Shown here in pieces: positions 6,484 to 33,693 of a stretch of 64,000 nucleotides of DNA. A program made the position numbers and the translations under genes. The stretch's first letter is position 1; the number at the start of each line of letters is the position of its first letter. Origin of the DNA: Hyphomicrobiales bacterium (GTDB lineage: Bacteria > Pseudomonadota > Alphaproteobacteria > Rhizobiales > Xanthobacteraceae); NCBI GenBank assembly GCA_017305715.1, contig JAFKKG010000011.1, forward strand, positions 62,001 through 126,000, read 5' to 3'. The notes beneath the pieces were generated by a model that made no database searches, was not told the origin of the DNA, and saw nothing but the letters and a program-made list of their open reading frames with translations.

Positions 6484-7308
6484 TTACTCTCTCCTGCCAA
6501 TCGTTGCGTCGAGGAATTCGCGCAAGGCGACGATCGATTGGTCCGTTGCGGATTGGTTGAATTCGAGATGATGGCCCAAAACCGTCCTCGGCGTCGTGAG
6601 GTTGGATACGTCGAAGGCATGATGGGCGCCGGGATAGACCACGAGTTTCATCGGAATGCCCTGATCCCTTTGCCTGGATATCCCCCAGTCGTCCCGGCCC
6701 TCTACCATATTGCGACACTCCTTTGCCAATGACCAATCGTCGAGTTCGCCGATCAGGATCAGCGTCGGCACCGTCATCTGGCCCTTGAAACCAAGGCAAT
6801 GGGGATAGAACGCAATCGCGGCATGAAACTTGTTCGGAGAAGTCTGCTCCATGGTGCCCTGTTCGACCGACATCAGCGCGACCCGGCCGCCATGGGCAAA
6901 ACCCAATACCGCGACACGCGCCGGATCGACCAAAGGATCGCGCGCGAGAAAATTCAAAGCCCGGTAGGCATCCAGGGTCAGATCGGCAGGAGCGCCATCG
7001 CCGCAGTTCGTCAGGCCGCGCGGACCGAGGCTGTCTACCGTCAACGCGACATAGCCCCACGACGCGATCCGCTTTCCCCAGCGCTCGTCGAGGCGCTGCC
7101 AGTTTCCGCTGCAACCATGCAACAGGACGACGGCGGGGGAGGGGCCTGCGTTGCCGCCTTGCCGCAGGTAACCCTGCAGCGGATGCGGACTGGCAAGCGG
7201 GCTCTCGATCTCGACGATGATCGGGGGCGATTCAGCCGCTGGGCATTCGGCCGGATTTCCGGCCAGCCATGCGGCAATCAAGGCAGCGATCTTGGCGCGG
7301 TTCTGCAC
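6484..7308 (-). CDS. Dienelactone hydrolase-like alpha/beta hydrolase, exported, nucleophile replaced by Ala
   Basis: The 274-residue protein has a signal peptide (through about PAECPAAES) and an alpha/beta hydrolase core. Conserved blocks are VVLLHGCSGNW, GYVALTVDSLGPRG, ARVAVLGFAHGGRVAL, LILIGELDDW and VVYPGAHHAFD, which carries the catalytic Asp and His. At the nucleophile elbow the residue between GF and HGG is alanine where the family has Cys or Ser. This was confirmed in the DNA as codon GCC. It may therefore be catalytically dead or use other chemistry. It is probably co-transcribed with the HAD gene 5 bp downstream. Confidence 0.85.
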   Translation of the reverse strand: MQNRAKIAALIAAWLAGNPAECPAAESPPIIVEIESPLASPHPLQGYLRQGGNAGPSPAVVLLHGCSGNWQRLDERWGKRIASWGYVALTVDSLGPRGLTNCGDGAPADLTLDAYRALNFLARDPLVDPARVAVLGFAHGGRVALMSVEQGTMEQTSPNKFHAAIAFYPHCLGFKGQMTVPTLILIGELDDWSLAKECRNMVEGRDDWGISRQRDQGIPMKLVVYPGAHHAFDVSNLTTPRTVLGHHLEFNQSATDQSIVALREFLDATIGRRE

Positions 7309-28485: not shown

Positions 28486-28659
28486 TCAGCGGCCGAATGA
28501 GAAAATCCCCGGCGGAAGCGGCTGCGGGTTGAGGGCGACCCGCTCGAGCGCAGACGTAAACTGGCGCTGAAGGCCGCTCACGATGATGATGCCACCCGCG
28601 ACACGATCGAGTTCGTCGGAAGTCAATTCTTCGTTCTTGATGGGCGTGAAATCGGTCAT
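28486..28659 (-). CDS. Double-glycine-leader peptide with NPQPLPP tail (RiPP/bacteriocin-like precursor), copy 1
   Basis: The 57-residue peptide starts MTDFTPIKNEELTSDELDRV and continues AGG. The segment ELTSDELDRVAGG is a typical double-glycine leader (residues 11-23), as used by C39 peptidase transporters for bacteriocins and other peptides. The presumed core then reads IIIVSGLQRQFTS, LERVALNPQPLPPGIF. A near-identical paralogue sits at 40029-40217. AAGGGGAC is the ribosome site. The upstream 90 bases are homologous in both copies and contain a CRP-like palindrome. No peptidase or modifying enzyme lies nearby. The role is unknown. Confidence 0.8.
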   Translation of the reverse strand: MTDFTPIKNEELTSDELDRVAGGIIIVSGLQRQFTSALERVALNPQPLPPGIFSFGR

Positions 28660-28734
28660 GGTCGGGTCCCCTTGGTTCGGCACGGCATGATGCCTGCGCC
28701 GAACGGGACATTGCCTGCGCCGGTCCGGCTTGTT

Positions 28735-28750
28735 TGTGATCGAGGTCACT
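28735..28750 (-). promoter_or_regulatory. CRP-like palindrome upstream of double-glycine peptide 1
   Basis: TGTGATCGAGGTCACT follows the CRP consensus TGTGA-N6-TCACA with one mismatch. It lies 75 bases upstream of the peptide ATG. The same position is occupied by a similar site before the paralogue at 40029, and related sites lie before 44977 and 45873. Confidence 0.65.
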
Positions 28751-28861: not shown

Positions 28862-30187
28862 TCAATTCGAAAATTCGAGCCGCGCTTCCAATCCGCCGCC
28901 GTTGCGATTGGCGAGCGTGAGCGTCCCGCGAAGCGCGCTGGCAAGTTGCTGGGCGATGGCAAGGCCGAGCCCGGTGCCACCGGTTTCGCGACTGCGCGAA
29001 GCCTCGACCCGGTAAAACGGTAAGAACACCGACTTCAGATGCTCGTCGGGAATACCGGGGCCGCGGTCCGATACGGTGATCGTGATGCCGTTCGAGCGTT
29101 GCGCATCGATGGCGACTTCGACATCCTCGCCGAACTTCAGCCCGTTATCGATCAGGTTGATCATGATGCGGCGCAAGGCCTGCGGGTGCGTGAGAATCGT
29201 CACCCCGCGTTCTCCGGCAAAGCGAAGCGATTTTCCGGCGTCGGAATAGTCGCAGACGAGGCTGTCGATAAGGGCATGCAGGTCGGTCTGGCACCGCTGC
29301 TTGCTGACCTCGTCGCGTCCGCGGGCCAGGGCAAGACCCTGCTTGACGAGCGTTTGCATTTCCTGCAGGTCACCCTGCAGCTTTTCCTTGGCGTCGCTCT
29401 CCCCCAGGAAATCAGCGCGCAGCCGCATGCGCGTGATCGGATTCTGAAGACGGCGCGAGATTCCCGCCAGGATCTGGATCCGCTCCACAGCCTGCTCGGC
29501 AATGCGTCGCTGCATGGCGTTGAAGGCGGTAGCGGCGCGCGCCACTTCCTTCGGACCATCCTCCGGGAGCAACTCGCCGCGCAGATCCGAACCCAGGTTG
29601 TTGGCCGCGCGCTCGAGGCGCGCCAGCGGTCGTGTCGCGAGCTTCACGGCAACCCAGGTGAAGAATGCGAGAAGACAGAGCTGAACGGCGAGCGCCGCGG
29701 GCAACCAGGGCGAACTCACCCTCCTCGGCGCGCGGTATTCGATCGTCACCGGACTGCCGTCCTCAAGGCGAATGAGCATGCCTCTTTTCGATCGCTCCGG
29801 TGGATCGAGGTAGACATAGTTCACGTCGTGGCCGGCTCCAAGCTCGGCCCTGAGGGCCGCCAAAAACACTTTCCCTCGAGGTCTGAGCGGCTCATGTGCC
29901 TCGCCGCCGCCCTTGAGAACGTATCGATATGCAGGTTTGGCGAAGCGATCCAGCCATGCGGGTCTTTCTTCGGGCTTGACCCGGTCGAGGATAGCGACTT
30001 CCGTCGCGACGCTCCTCATGAAGTAGTCATCCGACTGCTCGTTGCTGGGGCTGAAGACATTAAGGGCGACCAGACCAAAGGACAGCAGATGCGCAGCCAG
30101 CAGACCGGCGAACAGGATGATCGCCAGCCGGCGGAACAGTGAGTCCGGCCAAAGACGCGCCGCCATACGTCGAAGGTGGGCGCTCAT
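28862..30187 (-). CDS. Sensor histidine kinase paralogue 2: ATPase domain intact, phosphoacceptor His replaced by Arg
   Basis: The 441-residue protein has two hydrophobic segments (about residues 20-42 and 170-190) around a periplasmic domain, then HAMP and a DHp region. The H-box reads LAGISRRLQNPITRMRLR, so the histidine expected after IS is arginine (confirmed in the DNA as CGC). The ATPase domain is complete: N box NLIDNGLKF, G1 DRGPGIPDEH and G2 GTGLGLAIAQQLA. Its ATG overlaps the stop of the upstream kinase (ATGA). It cannot autophosphorylate in the usual way and could instead phosphorylate the paralogue in trans. It is the last gene of the three-gene operon. Confidence 0.9.
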   Translation of the reverse strand: MSAHLRRMAARLWPDSLFRRLAIILFAGLLAAHLLSFGLVALNVFSPSNEQSDDYFMRSVATEVAILDRVKPEERPAWLDRFAKPAYRYVLKGGGEAHEPLRPRGKVFLAALRAELGAGHDVNYVYLDPPERSKRGMLIRLEDGSPVTIEYRAPRRVSSPWLPAALAVQLCLLAFFTWVAVKLATRPLARLERAANNLGSDLRGELLPEDGPKEVARAATAFNAMQRRIAEQAVERIQILAGISRRLQNPITRMRLRADFLGESDAKEKLQGDLQEMQTLVKQGLALARGRDEVSKQRCQTDLHALIDSLVCDYSDAGKSLRFAGERGVTILTHPQALRRIMINLIDNGLKFGEDVEVAIDAQRSNGITITVSDRGPGIPDEHLKSVFLPFYRVEASRSRETGGTGLGLAIAQQLASALRGTLTLANRNGGGLEARLEFSN

Positions 30188-31116
30188 GACGGCTCCCGCG
30201 ATGCTTCGACGACGACATGCATGGAGTCCGACGGGCCAATGTCGCACTCCCGCGCCAGGGCAAGCCCCTGCTTGACGAGCGTCTGCATTTCCTGCAGGTC
30301 GCCCTGCAGCTTTTCCCTGGCGTCGCTGTCGCCCAGGAAATCAGCGCGCAGCCGCATCCGCGTGATCGGGGTCTGAAGATCGTGCGAGATTGCCGCCAGA
30401 ATCTGGATTCGTTCGGCGACCTGCTCGGCAATGCGTCGCTGCATGGCGTTGAGCGCGGCAGCGGTGCGCGCCACCTCCTTCGGACCATCCTCCGGGAGCG
30501 GCTCGCCGCGCAAATCCGAGCCCAGGCCGTTCGCCGCGCGCTCGAGGCGCGCCAGCGGTTGCGTCGCGAGCTTTACGGCAACCCAGACAAAGAATGCGAT
30601 GATACAGAGTTGAAGGGCGAGCGCCGCCGGCAACCAGGGCGAAATGATTTCCTTCGGCGGAAAGACTGCGATCGTCACGGGGCTACCGTCCTTCAGGTGC
30701 ATGCGTATGCCCCGCCGCAGTCGCTGCGGTGGATCGAAGTAGACAAAATTTGCGTCGTGGTCGGGCCCCAGCGCGGCCCGCAAACGCGCGATATTCGCTT
30801 GCCGTCGTTTGGGTGTCTCCGCCTCCAGCTCTCCCTCATCGCTGAGAATGTATCGCCAATGGCGTCGAGAGAGGCGGTCGAGCCAGGCGGGTCTTTCTTC
30901 AGGCTTGAGGTAGTCGAGGAAAGCGACCGCTTCCGCGATGTCCGCAGCAGCATATTTACTCCCCAGTTCGTCTTCGATAGCGATGCGGTCGAGGGCGATC
31001 AAAACGAAGGCCAGCACATGTGCAACCACAAGGCCGGAAAACAGGATCATCGCCAGCCGGCCGAACAGGGAGTCCGGCCAAAGACGCCACGCCACGGGCC
31101 GAAAACAAGCGCTCAT
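30184..31116 (-). CDS. Sensor histidine kinase paralogue 1: phosphoacceptor His present, ATPase domain missing
   Basis: The 310-residue protein is a close paralogue of the downstream kinase, with the same TM-periplasmic-TM-HAMP-DHp layout. Its H-box AAISHDLQTPITRMRLR keeps the phosphoacceptor histidine (about residue 249). It stops after the second DHp helix (QTLVKQGLALAREC) plus 20 unrelated residues, with no N, G1 or G2 box. It therefore cannot bind ATP itself. The ATG overlaps the response-regulator stop, and its own stop overlaps the second kinase start, both as ATGA, which implies coupled translation and 1:1 production. Confidence 0.9.
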   Translation of the reverse strand: MSACFRPVAWRLWPDSLFGRLAMILFSGLVVAHVLAFVLIALDRIAIEDELGSKYAAADIAEAVAFLDYLKPEERPAWLDRLSRRHWRYILSDEGELEAETPKRRQANIARLRAALGPDHDANFVYFDPPQRLRRGIRMHLKDGSPVTIAVFPPKEIISPWLPAALALQLCIIAFFVWVAVKLATQPLARLERAANGLGSDLRGEPLPEDGPKEVARTAAALNAMQRRIAEQVAERIQILAAISHDLQTPITRMRLRADFLGDSDAREKLQGDLQEMQTLVKQGLALARECDIGPSDSMHVVVEASREPS

Positions 31117-31853
31117 GTCGGACCCTGCAATGCCTCGACGGCGGCCGTAAAGACGTAGCCTTCGCTGCGCACCGTCTTGATATAGGACGGCTCCCGGGCG
31201 TCTTCGCGCAATCGCTGGCGAAGGCGGCTGACGAGAAGGTCTATCGACCGATCGAAGACTTCGGCCTCACGACCTTGCGTCAGGTCGAGCAGTTGATCGC
31301 GATTGAGGACATGCTGAGGGTGATCGAGAAACACGCGCAACAATCGGTATTCGGCGCCGCTCAGCGAGACCACGGTCTCGTTGGAGTCGACCAGGCAACG
31401 CCCGGCCGTATCGAGCTTCCATTCGCCGAACCGGAACAGGCGGGCCTTCTCCGACGCCGCAAGGTTGCGGGGCAGCATCTCGGCCCTGCGCAAGACCGAG
31501 CGGATTCGTGCGAGCAGCTCGCGCGGCGCAAACGGCTTCGTGAGATAGTCGTCCGCCCCCATCTCAAGGCCGACGATGCGGTCCGCCTCATCGCCGCGCG
31601 CCGTCAGCATCAGGATCGGAATCTCATAGGGTTGATTTGCGCGCAAGTTGCGGCAGAGCGTGAGGCCGTCGTCCCCCGGCAGCATGAGGTCAAGCACGAT
31701 CAGATCGATCCGGTGGCTTGCGAGAACCTCGCGCATCTGCCGCCCGTTGGCTACCGTAGTGACCCGATAGCCGTGGCCGGCAAAGTATCGGTCCAGCAGT
31801 TCGCGCAGACCCAGGTCATCGTCGACGACAAGAATGTGGTCCGAATTCCCCAT
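31113..31853 (-). CDS. OmpR/PhoB family response regulator
   Basis: The 246-residue protein has a receiver domain (LVVDDDLGL acidic pocket, IVLDLMLPGDDG phosphoacceptor Asp, LTARG, DYLTKPFAPREL lysine) and a winged-helix DNA-binding domain (VSLSGAEYRLLRVFLDHPQHVLNRDQLLD). The start is ATG at 31853 (MGNSDHILVVDDDLG); the open frame further upstream has no family match. It is the first gene of an operon with two complementary sensor kinases and is presumably their partner. The target genes are unknown. Confidence 0.93.
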   Translation of the reverse strand: MGNSDHILVVDDDLGLRELLDRYFAGHGYRVTTVANGRQMREVLASHRIDLIVLDLMLPGDDGLTLCRNLRANQPYEIPILMLTARGDEADRIVGLEMGADDYLTKPFAPRELLARIRSVLRRAEMLPRNLAASEKARLFRFGEWKLDTAGRCLVDSNETVVSLSGAEYRLLRVFLDHPQHVLNRDQLLDLTQGREAEVFDRSIDLLVSRLRQRLREDAREPSYIKTVRSEGYVFTAAVEALQGPT

Positions 31854-32024
31854 ACACGCCAGAGTACCCAACCGCCGGGGCAAGCGACATCCTATTTTGT
31901 AACATAATGTATCGTTCTGGCGGCCCGACACAGAAAATTTCAAAATGGTCAGCCTCGGAAATTCGCGAGATACATCGGACACTTCCAGTGATGCTTCGCT
32001 TCCTTTCGGACGAAAGCGGTGTCG
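31854..32024. other. Upstream region of the response-regulator operon
   Basis: No gene is supported here. The AT-rich stretch 31890-31915 (read on the minus strand as TACATTATGTTACAAAAT) is the probable promoter of the response-regulator operon. No further element could be fixed. Confidence 0.4.
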
Positions 32025-32412: not shown

Positions 32413-32964
32413 ATGAGAATCCTATCAAGCCTTGTCGCGCCCTCGGCTGTTGCTATCCTTTCAACCGCATTGCTATGCGCGCTCGGTGGCCCGGCCGCGC
32501 CGCAAACGGCCAGCACGCTTCCCAGCGTCACCGTCGACGCGCCAAGGGAACTGGCAAGACCGCAACGGCCGGAGGTAACGCCACGAGGCTCCGGTCGGGT
32601 AGCACACCGAGCGGGCCGGACATCGCGATCCACTCAAATGGCGAATGGGACGTCGACCGGGGCTGCGCGGGGTCCTATCATGGTGAAGCTTGCCCGGCTC
32701 GAGAGGGAGGCCAGCAGTTGCAACGATGGTTGCGAGTCAAGCTTCAGGCGCGGCAAGGATCCTTGGGTTGGATGCAGCGAGTCGGGAGGGTATTACTCCG
32801 TTTTCTCAGCGACCTGCAAAGACACACTCACTCACAGGGACTACGTGCAATGCGTGGAGACCAAAATGTTTCTGGGTTGGGACCGACAACGATCCTGGTG
32901 GTATTGCACCGGTATGCTGGCTGGAGGGAAATTTCGGGTCACCGCGGAGAATCGAAACAGGTAG
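32413..32964 (+). CDS. Exported Cys-rich protein, tandem paralogue A
   Basis: The 183-residue protein has a signal peptide (MRILSSLVAPSAVAILSTAL, cleavage near PAAPQ) followed by a basic, Pro/Arg-rich linker. A C-terminal domain contains SCNDGC, then PWVGCSESGG, SATCK, YVQCVETKMFLGW and SWWYCTGMLAGGKF. Six cysteines suggest disulfide bonds in the periplasm. The next gene encodes a paralogue with the same layout. GGGAGAACGG precedes the ATG. The family is not recognised and no function is assigned. Confidence 0.75.
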   Translation: MRILSSLVAPSAVAILSTALLCALGGPAAPQTASTLPSVTVDAPRELARPQRPEVTPRGSGRVAHRAGRTSRSTQMANGTSTGAARGPIMVKLARLEREASSCNDGCESSFRRGKDPWVGCSESGGYYSVFSATCKDTLTHRDYVQCVETKMFLGWDRQRSWWYCTGMLAGGKFRVTAENRNR

Positions 32965-33096
32965 TGCATGCGTATCGAGGCTCGATGCCGGGCAGCTGAA
33001 CGGCGTCTGTGATTTGTCTTCGGAAGTGCTGGTTGGATGCGTGACATGGTGTTCGCACCGGGGCGGCATCTATGTCCGGATTTGGGGGAGCATGTC

Positions 33097-33693
33097 GTGA
33101 GGTTGCCATCAAGCGTTGTCGCGCCTTCAGCTATCGCTATCCTCTCAACTGCATTGCTGTGCGGCCTGAGCGGCACGGCAGCCTCGCAAACCGCAACAGG
33201 TCCCGGCAACCAGCTTCCCAGCATCACGGTCCTGGCACCGAAGCAAGTGGCCAGGCCGCGCCGGGCGGAGCCGGCGGCAAGGCCACAAAGGCGGACGCCG
33301 CCGGTGGCAAACAGGATTGCAGCCCGCCCGACATCGCCAGCGCCTCAAACGCAACCGGCAACCGCTCAAAAGCCGGCGCCCGGTTCAGTGATGGCAAGGA
33401 TTGCTGCGCTTGAGAAGACCTCCGGCAGTTGCAACGACGGTTGCCAAACAAGCTTCAAATACGGCAACCAACCGTGGAACGGATGCTCCGTGTCGGCCGG
33501 GGATTTTACGTTATCGGCAACGTGCAAAAACGGACGCAACTACAAAACCTACCAGGAGTGCCACGAGACCGGAATGTTTTTGGGCGCGAGACAATTTGAA
33601 GTCTGGTGGTATTGCAGCAGCCTGCACGCCGGGGGCAAGCTTTCCGGGGAGAAGGTTCAGCTCGCCGAACTCAAGCGATCAAGACGTCGCTAG
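33097..33693 (+). CDS. Exported Cys-rich protein, tandem paralogue B
   Basis: This 198-residue paralogue of the preceding gene has a matching signal peptide (VRLPSSVVAPSAIAILSTAL, cleavage near TAASQ), a longer Ala/Pro/Arg-rich linker and the same cysteine domain: SCNDGCQTSF, PWNGCSVSAGDF, SATCKNG, YQECHETGMFLG and WWYCSSLHAGGKLSG. The start is GTG at 33097 with GGGGGAG at 33084-33090. The DNA upstream of both starts is similar, so the duplication included the leader. Confidence 0.75.
   Translation: MRLPSSVVAPSAIAILSTALLCGLSGTAASQTATGPGNQLPSITVLAPKQVARPRRAEPAARPQRRTPPVANRIAARPTSPAPQTQPATAQKPAPGSVMARIAALEKTSGSCNDGCQTSFKYGNQPWNGCSVSAGDFTLSATCKNGRNYKTYQECHETGMFLGARQFEVWWYCSSLHAGGKLSGEKVQLAELKRSRRR

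Follow-up and report, generated by a model that had tools for sequence, protein, structure and literature searches.

A tandem pair of reciprocally incomplete EnvZ-like sensor kinases in Bradyrhizobium, a probable split histidine kinase

The usual view of histidine kinases is that they are homodimers; heterodimeric ones are, to our knowledge, mostly laboratory constructs or side reactions. A stretch of 64,000 nucleotides (nt) from a Hyphomicrobiales bacterium (GenBank assembly GCA_017305715.1, contig JAFKKG010000011.1, positions 62,001 to 126,000 of the forward strand; hereafter the window, to which all positions refer unless another genome is named) raises the question of whether two incomplete kinases can work as one. 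It encodes an OmpR-type response regulator followed by two sensor kinases, HK1 and HK2, and each kinase is without a part that the other has. A preliminary description, made from the sequence alone, had read the pair as a split kinase in which HK2 phosphorylates HK1 and HK1 passes the phosphate to the regulator. We consider it likely, from comparisons of sequence across ten loci, that the three genes encode a split, obligately heterodimeric EnvZ-like sensor kinase. The genes and their junctions are as follows.

31113..31853, minus strand: OmpR-type response regulator of 246 amino acids (aa), receiver Asp/Lys motifs intact (Response_reg 5.2e-32, Trans_reg_C 6e-21).
31113..31116, minus strand: ATGA overlap between regulator and HK1.
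30184..31116, minus strand: HK1, 310 aa, a sensor with two transmembrane (TM) helices, HAMP and DHp with His245 (ISHDLQTP), no CA (ATPase) domain.
30184..30187, minus strand: ATGA overlap between HK1 and HK2.
28862..30187, minus strand: HK2, 441 aa, a sensor with two TM helices, HAMP, DHp (ISRRLQNP, Arg-Arg for His-Asp) and a complete CA domain (N, G1, F and G2 boxes).

Pfam placed HAMP (25.4 bits, cut-off 25) and HisKA (29.2 bits, cut-off 26.9) in HK1; HATPase_c gave no match at E ≤ 1, and the only further match was a weak, unrelated one below its cut-off. The acceptor motif of HK1 reads ISHDLQTPIT, with codon CAC for His245 followed by GAT (Asp), and the protein stops at residue 310. HK2 matched HATPase_c at 4.4e-24 as well as HAMP, with HisKA below its cut-off (21.0 versus 26.9 bits), and its acceptor motif, ISRRLQNPIT, has CGC CGT (Arg-Arg) where HK1 has CAC GAT. 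The preliminary description was therefore right about the phosphoacceptor His without ATP-binding boxes in HK1, about the full ATPase domain with Arg for His in HK2, and about three genes joined by two ATGA overlaps, for which coordinates, strands and lengths all match. HK2 starts, at 30187, with the ATG of its overlap, though a start at the GTG at 30247 would give a longer open frame. Among the 51 HisKA and 61 HATPase_c stretches found in the source genome, HK1 was the only HisKA stretch without HATPase_c within 800 bp downstream on its own strand. Of the features of a split histidine kinase, the functional class of Amin, Porter and Soyer (2013), two were found, namely a phosphoacceptor domain on a HATPase-less protein (HK1, by Pfam and, at all ten loci described below, by motif) and a HATPase domain on a separate protein without a usable acceptor (HK2); a third, a complex of the two that autophosphorylates only when both are present, is predicted for the pair. 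The closest NCBIfam model was EnvZ for both kinases (77.3 bits for HK1 and 178.8 bits for HK2, under the cut-off of 415) and OmpR for the regulator (273.9 bits, under the cut-off of 331); HK1 and HK2 are EnvZ-like rather than EnvZ equivalogs, and the regulator likewise falls below the OmpR cut-off. Among solved structures, the best match of HK1 was the EnvZ chimera 3zrw (1.9e-9), its HAMP-DHp part aligning best to EnvZ chimeras, and HK2 matched CpxA best and an EnvZ chimera second.

HK1 was then sought in 265 whole Bradyrhizobium genomes, source genome included, and at most eight candidates from each were scored. Nine genomes reached a match of E ≤ 1e-35, and every one of these carries the HK1/HK2 tandem, at ten loci in total; the nine include SZCCT0176, SZCCT0180, SRL28, B. 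lablabi CCBAU 23086 and B. jicamae PAC68 (G062), and three carrier assemblies consist of one contig (G095, G191 and G234). The search for the same two-gene pattern in relatives that the preliminary description had proposed thus returned it at every tandem locus. All ten HK1 proteins contain ISHDLQTPIT, stop shortly after the DHp helices and have no N, G1 or G2 box by motif patterns. They keep His, Asp (+1) and Thr (+4), i.e., the HDxxT motif, and apart from this His the operon has no intact HDxxT acceptor. NLIDNG, DRGPGI and GTGLGL are present in all ten HK2 proteins, and since these CA boxes are kept throughout, HK2 presumably uses ATP on something. At the HK2 acceptor site, nine loci have Arg and B. 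jicamae G062 has His (codon CAT; ISHRLQTP). The residue next to it is Arg in place of an acidic residue at all ten loci, and the +4 residue is Thr in nine and Asn in the window. In G095, the complete set of secreted genes, regulator, HK1 and HK2 is present twice (L028 and L029), with the HK1 genes 10.8 kb apart and 92% and 87% identical to the window HK1.

Carriers and non-carriers were compared by recA in 30 chosen genomes (8 carriers and 22 non-carriers), 29 of which gave a match. Identity to the source genome was 93–95% in the eight other carriers, and non-carriers, among them G139, G039, G241, G041 and G160, also reached 94%. The distribution is thus patchy among close relatives, by loss or transfer. 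A single intact kinase in related genomes would, according to the preliminary description, have meant recent decay of the pair; no close one was found among the 265 genomes with the candidates scored, the nearest one seen being 39% identical, in G234. The equivalent position in non-carriers is not definable because the flanks are not conserved.

To describe the constraint on each domain, we calculated the ratio of nonsynonymous to synonymous substitution rates (dN/dS) by Nei and Gojobori counting as a mean over orthologue pairs (45 pairs each; 36 for the TM2-HAMP part of HK1, owing to a deletion in G062). Mean values were 0.084 for the HK1 DHp, 0.099 for the HK2 DHp and 0.154 for the HK2 ATPase domain; the TM2-HAMP parts of the two kinases gave 0.19 and 0.23, and the sensor regions 0.44 and 0.50. 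Purifying selection is strong on the DHp and ATPase domains, and the sensors are diverging fast. The HK2 DHp has no His at nine of ten loci, yet the constraint on it comes close to that on the HK1 DHp, which a role as dimer interface or regulator dock would lead one to expect. Over a stretch of 60 DHp residues, 37 columns show a single residue across the 20 proteins (gaps in the G062 HK1 ignored). The HK1 and HK2 sets share no residue only at columns 233, 242 and 246 (Asp versus Arg) and at the edge residue 290; at column 245 they overlap only through B. jicamae. There are no such disjoint columns in HAMP and 23 in the periplasmic region. Such a pattern is to be expected of two subunits that have a dimer interface and a regulator-docking face in common and differ in the inputs they sense. 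That gene conversion on a large scale made the DHps alike is not supported, as the mean synonymous divergence (dS) between the HK1 and HK2 DHps is 0.42 within a genome and about the same, 0.44, between genomes. Short conversion tracts between HK1 and HK2 may still have occurred, e.g., in G157 with a dS of 0.20.

The end of the HK1 gene bears on how the pair arose.

30188..30220, minus strand: HK1 3' end (VVVEASREPS region), a repeat of the regulator gene's 3' end and the putative scar of a tandem duplication.

When the 33 nt before the HK1/HK2 ATG were compared with the 33 nt before the regulator/HK1 ATG, 20–26 positions were identical across the ten loci (21 of 33 in the window), and beyond 30 nt upstream the likeness was no better than background. 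Codon-aligned control comparisons elsewhere in both genes gave at most 20–22 identical positions. No control reached the observed match in nine of the ten loci, and in G234 (20/33) 14 of 59,706 did; the ten comparisons are of related loci and do not amount to ten independent tests. On the protein level, the regulators end in AAVEALPEPS or similar and HK1 in VAVEASPEPS or similar. With 929 bp from ATG to ATG in the window, the pair was probably made by one tandem duplication of a unit of about 0.93 kb that began some ten codons before the end of the regulator gene and stopped a little beyond the DHp of a single ancestral kinase. Three genes would result from such an event: the regulator, a shortened kinase that breaks off behind its DHp and runs in frame into the final codons of the regulator, and a kinase with all its domains. 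In HK2, the acidic neighbour of the His would then have been lost, and so, in most lineages, would the His. As the HK1 3' end repeats that of the regulator, HK1 was probably born truncated rather than decayed. The truncation is not a frameshift, because no ATPase-coding DNA remains behind HK1: at every locus HK2 begins ~20 codons past the end of the HK1 DHp helices, which excludes the frameshift restoring an HK1 ATPase that the preliminary description had named as a possible refutation. Its view of the pair as division of labour after duplication rather than decay is supported by dN/dS values of 0.08–0.15 on exactly the retained parts, with the correction that HK1 most likely never had an ATPase domain to lose.

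Single kinases outside the pair give a picture of the ancestral state. We read 20 outgroup kinases, picked by score from family- and order-level searches and from G234 (L036–L044 and L067–L077; 20 weaker ones, L045–L064, were left out). All 20 have ISHDLQTPI, G1 and G2 on one protein; the N-box pattern fitted nine of them and not the other 11. In the nine outgroup loci read more widely, a regulator with 67–70% identity lies directly upstream of the kinase, and no homologue of the secreted neighbours described below was found at E ≤ 1e-3. In a 40-row tree with these outgroups, HK1s and HK2s together stand apart from the single kinases (support 100/100), and the HK2 clade (97/93) is better supported than the HK1 clade (83/70). 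As HK1s and HK2s form separate clades, the duplication predates these species.

The comparisons show the anatomy of the two kinases, its conservation, the duplication scar, the selection on the retained domains and the single-kinase state of the outgroups. From these data we infer heterodimerisation, trans-phosphorylation, a phosphatase role and the targets of the system, and the mechanism would run as follows. The contact between HK1 and HK2 would be made by their HAMP and DHp helices, which hardly differ between the two; within this dimer, the HK2 ATPase domain would phosphorylate His245 of HK1 in trans, and HK1 would hand the phosphate to the OmpR-type regulator, which would probably act on divergent secreted-protein genes and its own operon. 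An HK2 homodimer would have no usable phosphate acceptor. An HK1 homodimer would have no ATPase domain and, with HDxxT retained, may act as a phosphatase. The heterodimer would thereby be the meeting point of two inputs, received by two fast-diverging periplasmic sensors. Autophosphorylation in trans is the EnvZ-type mode. EnvZ remains active when its HisKA and HATPase parts are on separate polypeptides (PMC3591291).

Several points weigh against this mechanism. The DHp loop is two residues shorter than that of EnvZ and four shorter than that of CpxA, and this loop is reported to decide between cis and trans autophosphorylation (Ashenberg 2013, as cited in PMC5956149); a cis kinase could not reach across the heterodimer to the partner's His. 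For a truncated ChrS kinase of Corynebacterium, two-hybrid data are described as giving no clear heterodimer (PMC9491836). The literature searched held no biochemistry on this pair, and AlphaFold models from six-row alignments, with a mean predicted local distance difference test score (pLDDT) of 44 for HK1 and 50 for HK2, were too poor to use. Furthermore, the system is dispensable to the genus, since it is carried by nine of 265 genomes and is patchy by recA. Strict complementarity also fails at one of the ten loci, that of B. jicamae, whose HK2 has a His, with Arg at +1. The statement in the preliminary description that each half keeps exactly what the other lost accordingly holds for most loci and not for this one, where HK1 is without HAMP as well.

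The B. jicamae locus (L035), where HK1 lost HAMP through an in-frame deletion and HK2 has the acceptor-site His, is a natural variant of the pair. A copying of this His from HK1 was rejected, as the HK2 codon is CAT versus CAC in HK1 and flanking HK2-type residues are retained. The DNA tree requires two changes for a reversion and two for a retained ancestral His. The locus fits a partial escape.

Three other explanations have to be weighed against a split kinase. HK1, alone or with HK2 as an ATP-sensing partner, might only dephosphorylate the regulator, as a brake on phosphate that comes from another kinase or from acetyl phosphate. The DHp of EnvZ acts as a phosphatase on its own, and HK1 keeps the HDxxT phosphatase motif at all ten loci; however, such a module gives no clear reason for keeping both His and Asp (+1) in every HK1 along with a complete HK2 CA domain at a dN/dS of 0.15, and we regard it as unlikely. 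Phosphatase action can also be a second activity of the same HK1/HK2 pair. It is quite improbable, in our estimate, that HK2 is a regulatory pseudokinase and that the HK1 His is phosphorylated by another, complete kinase of the cell. The 61 HATPase_c stretches of the genome would offer candidates, and partner-modulating pseudokinases are described, e.g., DivL and a laboratory-evolved ChrS variant (PMC9491836). Like DivL, HK2 has no acceptor His (at nine of ten loci) and has kept its CA domain; DivL, as described, modulates the complete kinase CckA, whereas HK2's operon partner has no ATPase domain. Moreover, the HK2 CA boxes are intact and conserved, HK1 and HK2 share one overlapping operon at all ten loci, and a kinase from elsewhere would have to fit that DHp interface. 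It is very improbable that the two genes are remnants of a kinase in decay or come from an error of assembly or a frameshift: although each gene is without something essential, the B. jicamae HK1 is without HAMP too and few congeners have the pair, the same anatomy with open frames and low dN/dS recurs at ten loci in nine genomes, three of which are one-contig assemblies, the duplication scar accounts for the truncation, and the artefact is refuted by these loci and by the absence of ATPase-coding DNA between HK1 and HK2.

Such an obligate heterodimer may have arisen by constructive neutral evolution, a scenario that we put forward tentatively and rate at somewhat below even. The one tandem duplication would have given a ready-made subunit without ATPase, the loss of the HK2 acceptor would have locked the two into an obligate heterodimer, and the sensors thus freed would have diverged into a two-input AND gate, with the phosphatase of the HK1 homodimer giving a switch-like response.

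The surroundings of the operon point to a possible output.

31898..31913, minus strand: direct repeat GATACA-N4-GTTACA with a 10-bp period, upstream of the regulator, a candidate regulator-binding site within a conserved block of the ten aligned upstream regions.
32413..32964, plus strand: small secreted-type protein, divergent, no Pfam match.
33037..33693, plus strand: paralogous small secreted-type protein, no Pfam match, true start probably a few codons downstream.

The direct repeat, GATACATTANGTTACA, lies 45 nt upstream of the regulator start and is exact at nine of ten loci, with G095B differing in the spacer. GATACA-N4-GTTACA has one match in the window at up to one mismatch, where 0.01 are expected. 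A second exact copy of this OmpR-like repeat was seen in G165 (L033), at 6681–6696 of that locus, a short way upstream of the secreted genes there. At all ten loci, the window counted, between one and three divergent genes for small secreted-type proteins are found 0.2–2.3 kb upstream of the regulator; in G157 and G158, the apparent stop in the secreted gene precedes the likely start codon. This secreted family extends beyond the kinase pair and occurs in 129 of the 265 genomes at E ≤ 1e-15. The regulator probably controls the secreted genes and its own operon, and the secreted proteins may be a target of the system or a partner in it. The other window neighbours tested (a permease, an enoyl-CoA hydratase, LysR genes and others) were not conserved at the other loci, save for two weak family-level matches. 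Just downstream of HK2, an 87-aa open reading frame (ORF; 28486–28749, minus strand) has a double-glycine-like leader, LTSDELDRVAGG, followed by ALNPQPLPPG, and no Pfam match; no match to it at E ≤ 1e-6 was found beside the other nine loci.

Split kinases as such are already known; the paralogous membrane HisKA pair appears to be a new form. No pair of reciprocally disabled membrane-sensor paralogues was described in the literature searched, most subscription journals lying outside it. In the laboratory, EnvZ and Taz were reportedly complemented by two defective mutants (by Yang and Inouye in 1991 and Park in 1998), and HK1/HK2 mirrors in nature the reported combination of a His-minus with an ATPase-minus mutant. 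Unlike the laboratory pair, it is natural, fixed over at least nine species and equipped with two diverging sensors. In Mycobacterium tuberculosis, Rv0601c and Rv0600c represent a single HisKA-class kinase cut into an N-terminal (DHp) and a C-terminal (ATPase) half, whereas the tandem duplication would have given HK1/HK2 two full sensors, each with TM helices, HAMP and DHp. The two M. tuberculosis kinases are reported to cooperate with TcrA (PMC9274095), which likewise makes a system of three genes, a regulator and two kinases. CheA3/CheA4 of Rhodobacter sphaeroides are an established split kinase and, as described, resemble HK1/HK2 in that the acceptor domain is on one protein and a dimer-competent, ATPase-bearing kinase on the other, neither being complete; their acceptor protein can carry phosphatase activity, in which HK1 would be alike (PMC3591291). 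CheA3 and CheA4, however, are described as chemotaxis kinases of the CheA class, whereas HK1 and HK2 are HisKA-class membrane-sensor paralogues with a whole HAMP-DHp on both. The CheA domain set includes P1 Hpt, P3, P4 and P5, and no CheA domains were found in HK1 or HK2, which above the Pfam cut-offs have only HAMP and HisKA (HK1) or HAMP and HATPase_c (HK2). In Synechocystis, Hik36/Hik43 (PilL-N/PilL-C) with Rre6 were proposed as a split kinase from two-hybrid data and, according to that account, similarly distribute one kinase function over two polypeptides for one regulator; they derive from a CheA-type gene cut in two, whereas HK1/HK2 are reciprocally disabled paralogues (PMC7656254). HK1 itself belongs to a class that was foreseen, since Amin et al. 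counted 1,556 proteins without HATPase among 42,417 HisKA proteins, and 711 of the 1,556 had the phosphatase motif.

If HK1 and HK2 do form a split kinase, this natural and conserved pair would be a system in which signalling by heterodimers, cis/trans chemistry and the asymmetry of sensors can be studied with no need for engineered mutants. Ultrasensitivity and bistability are predicted in PMC3591291 for a bifunctional kinase that has been split, and the pair would put this prediction to the test. The probable duplication scar shows how such a pair may be born in one step, and it provides a recipe for finding others, namely a search for histidine kinases whose tail repeats the end of the upstream regulator gene.

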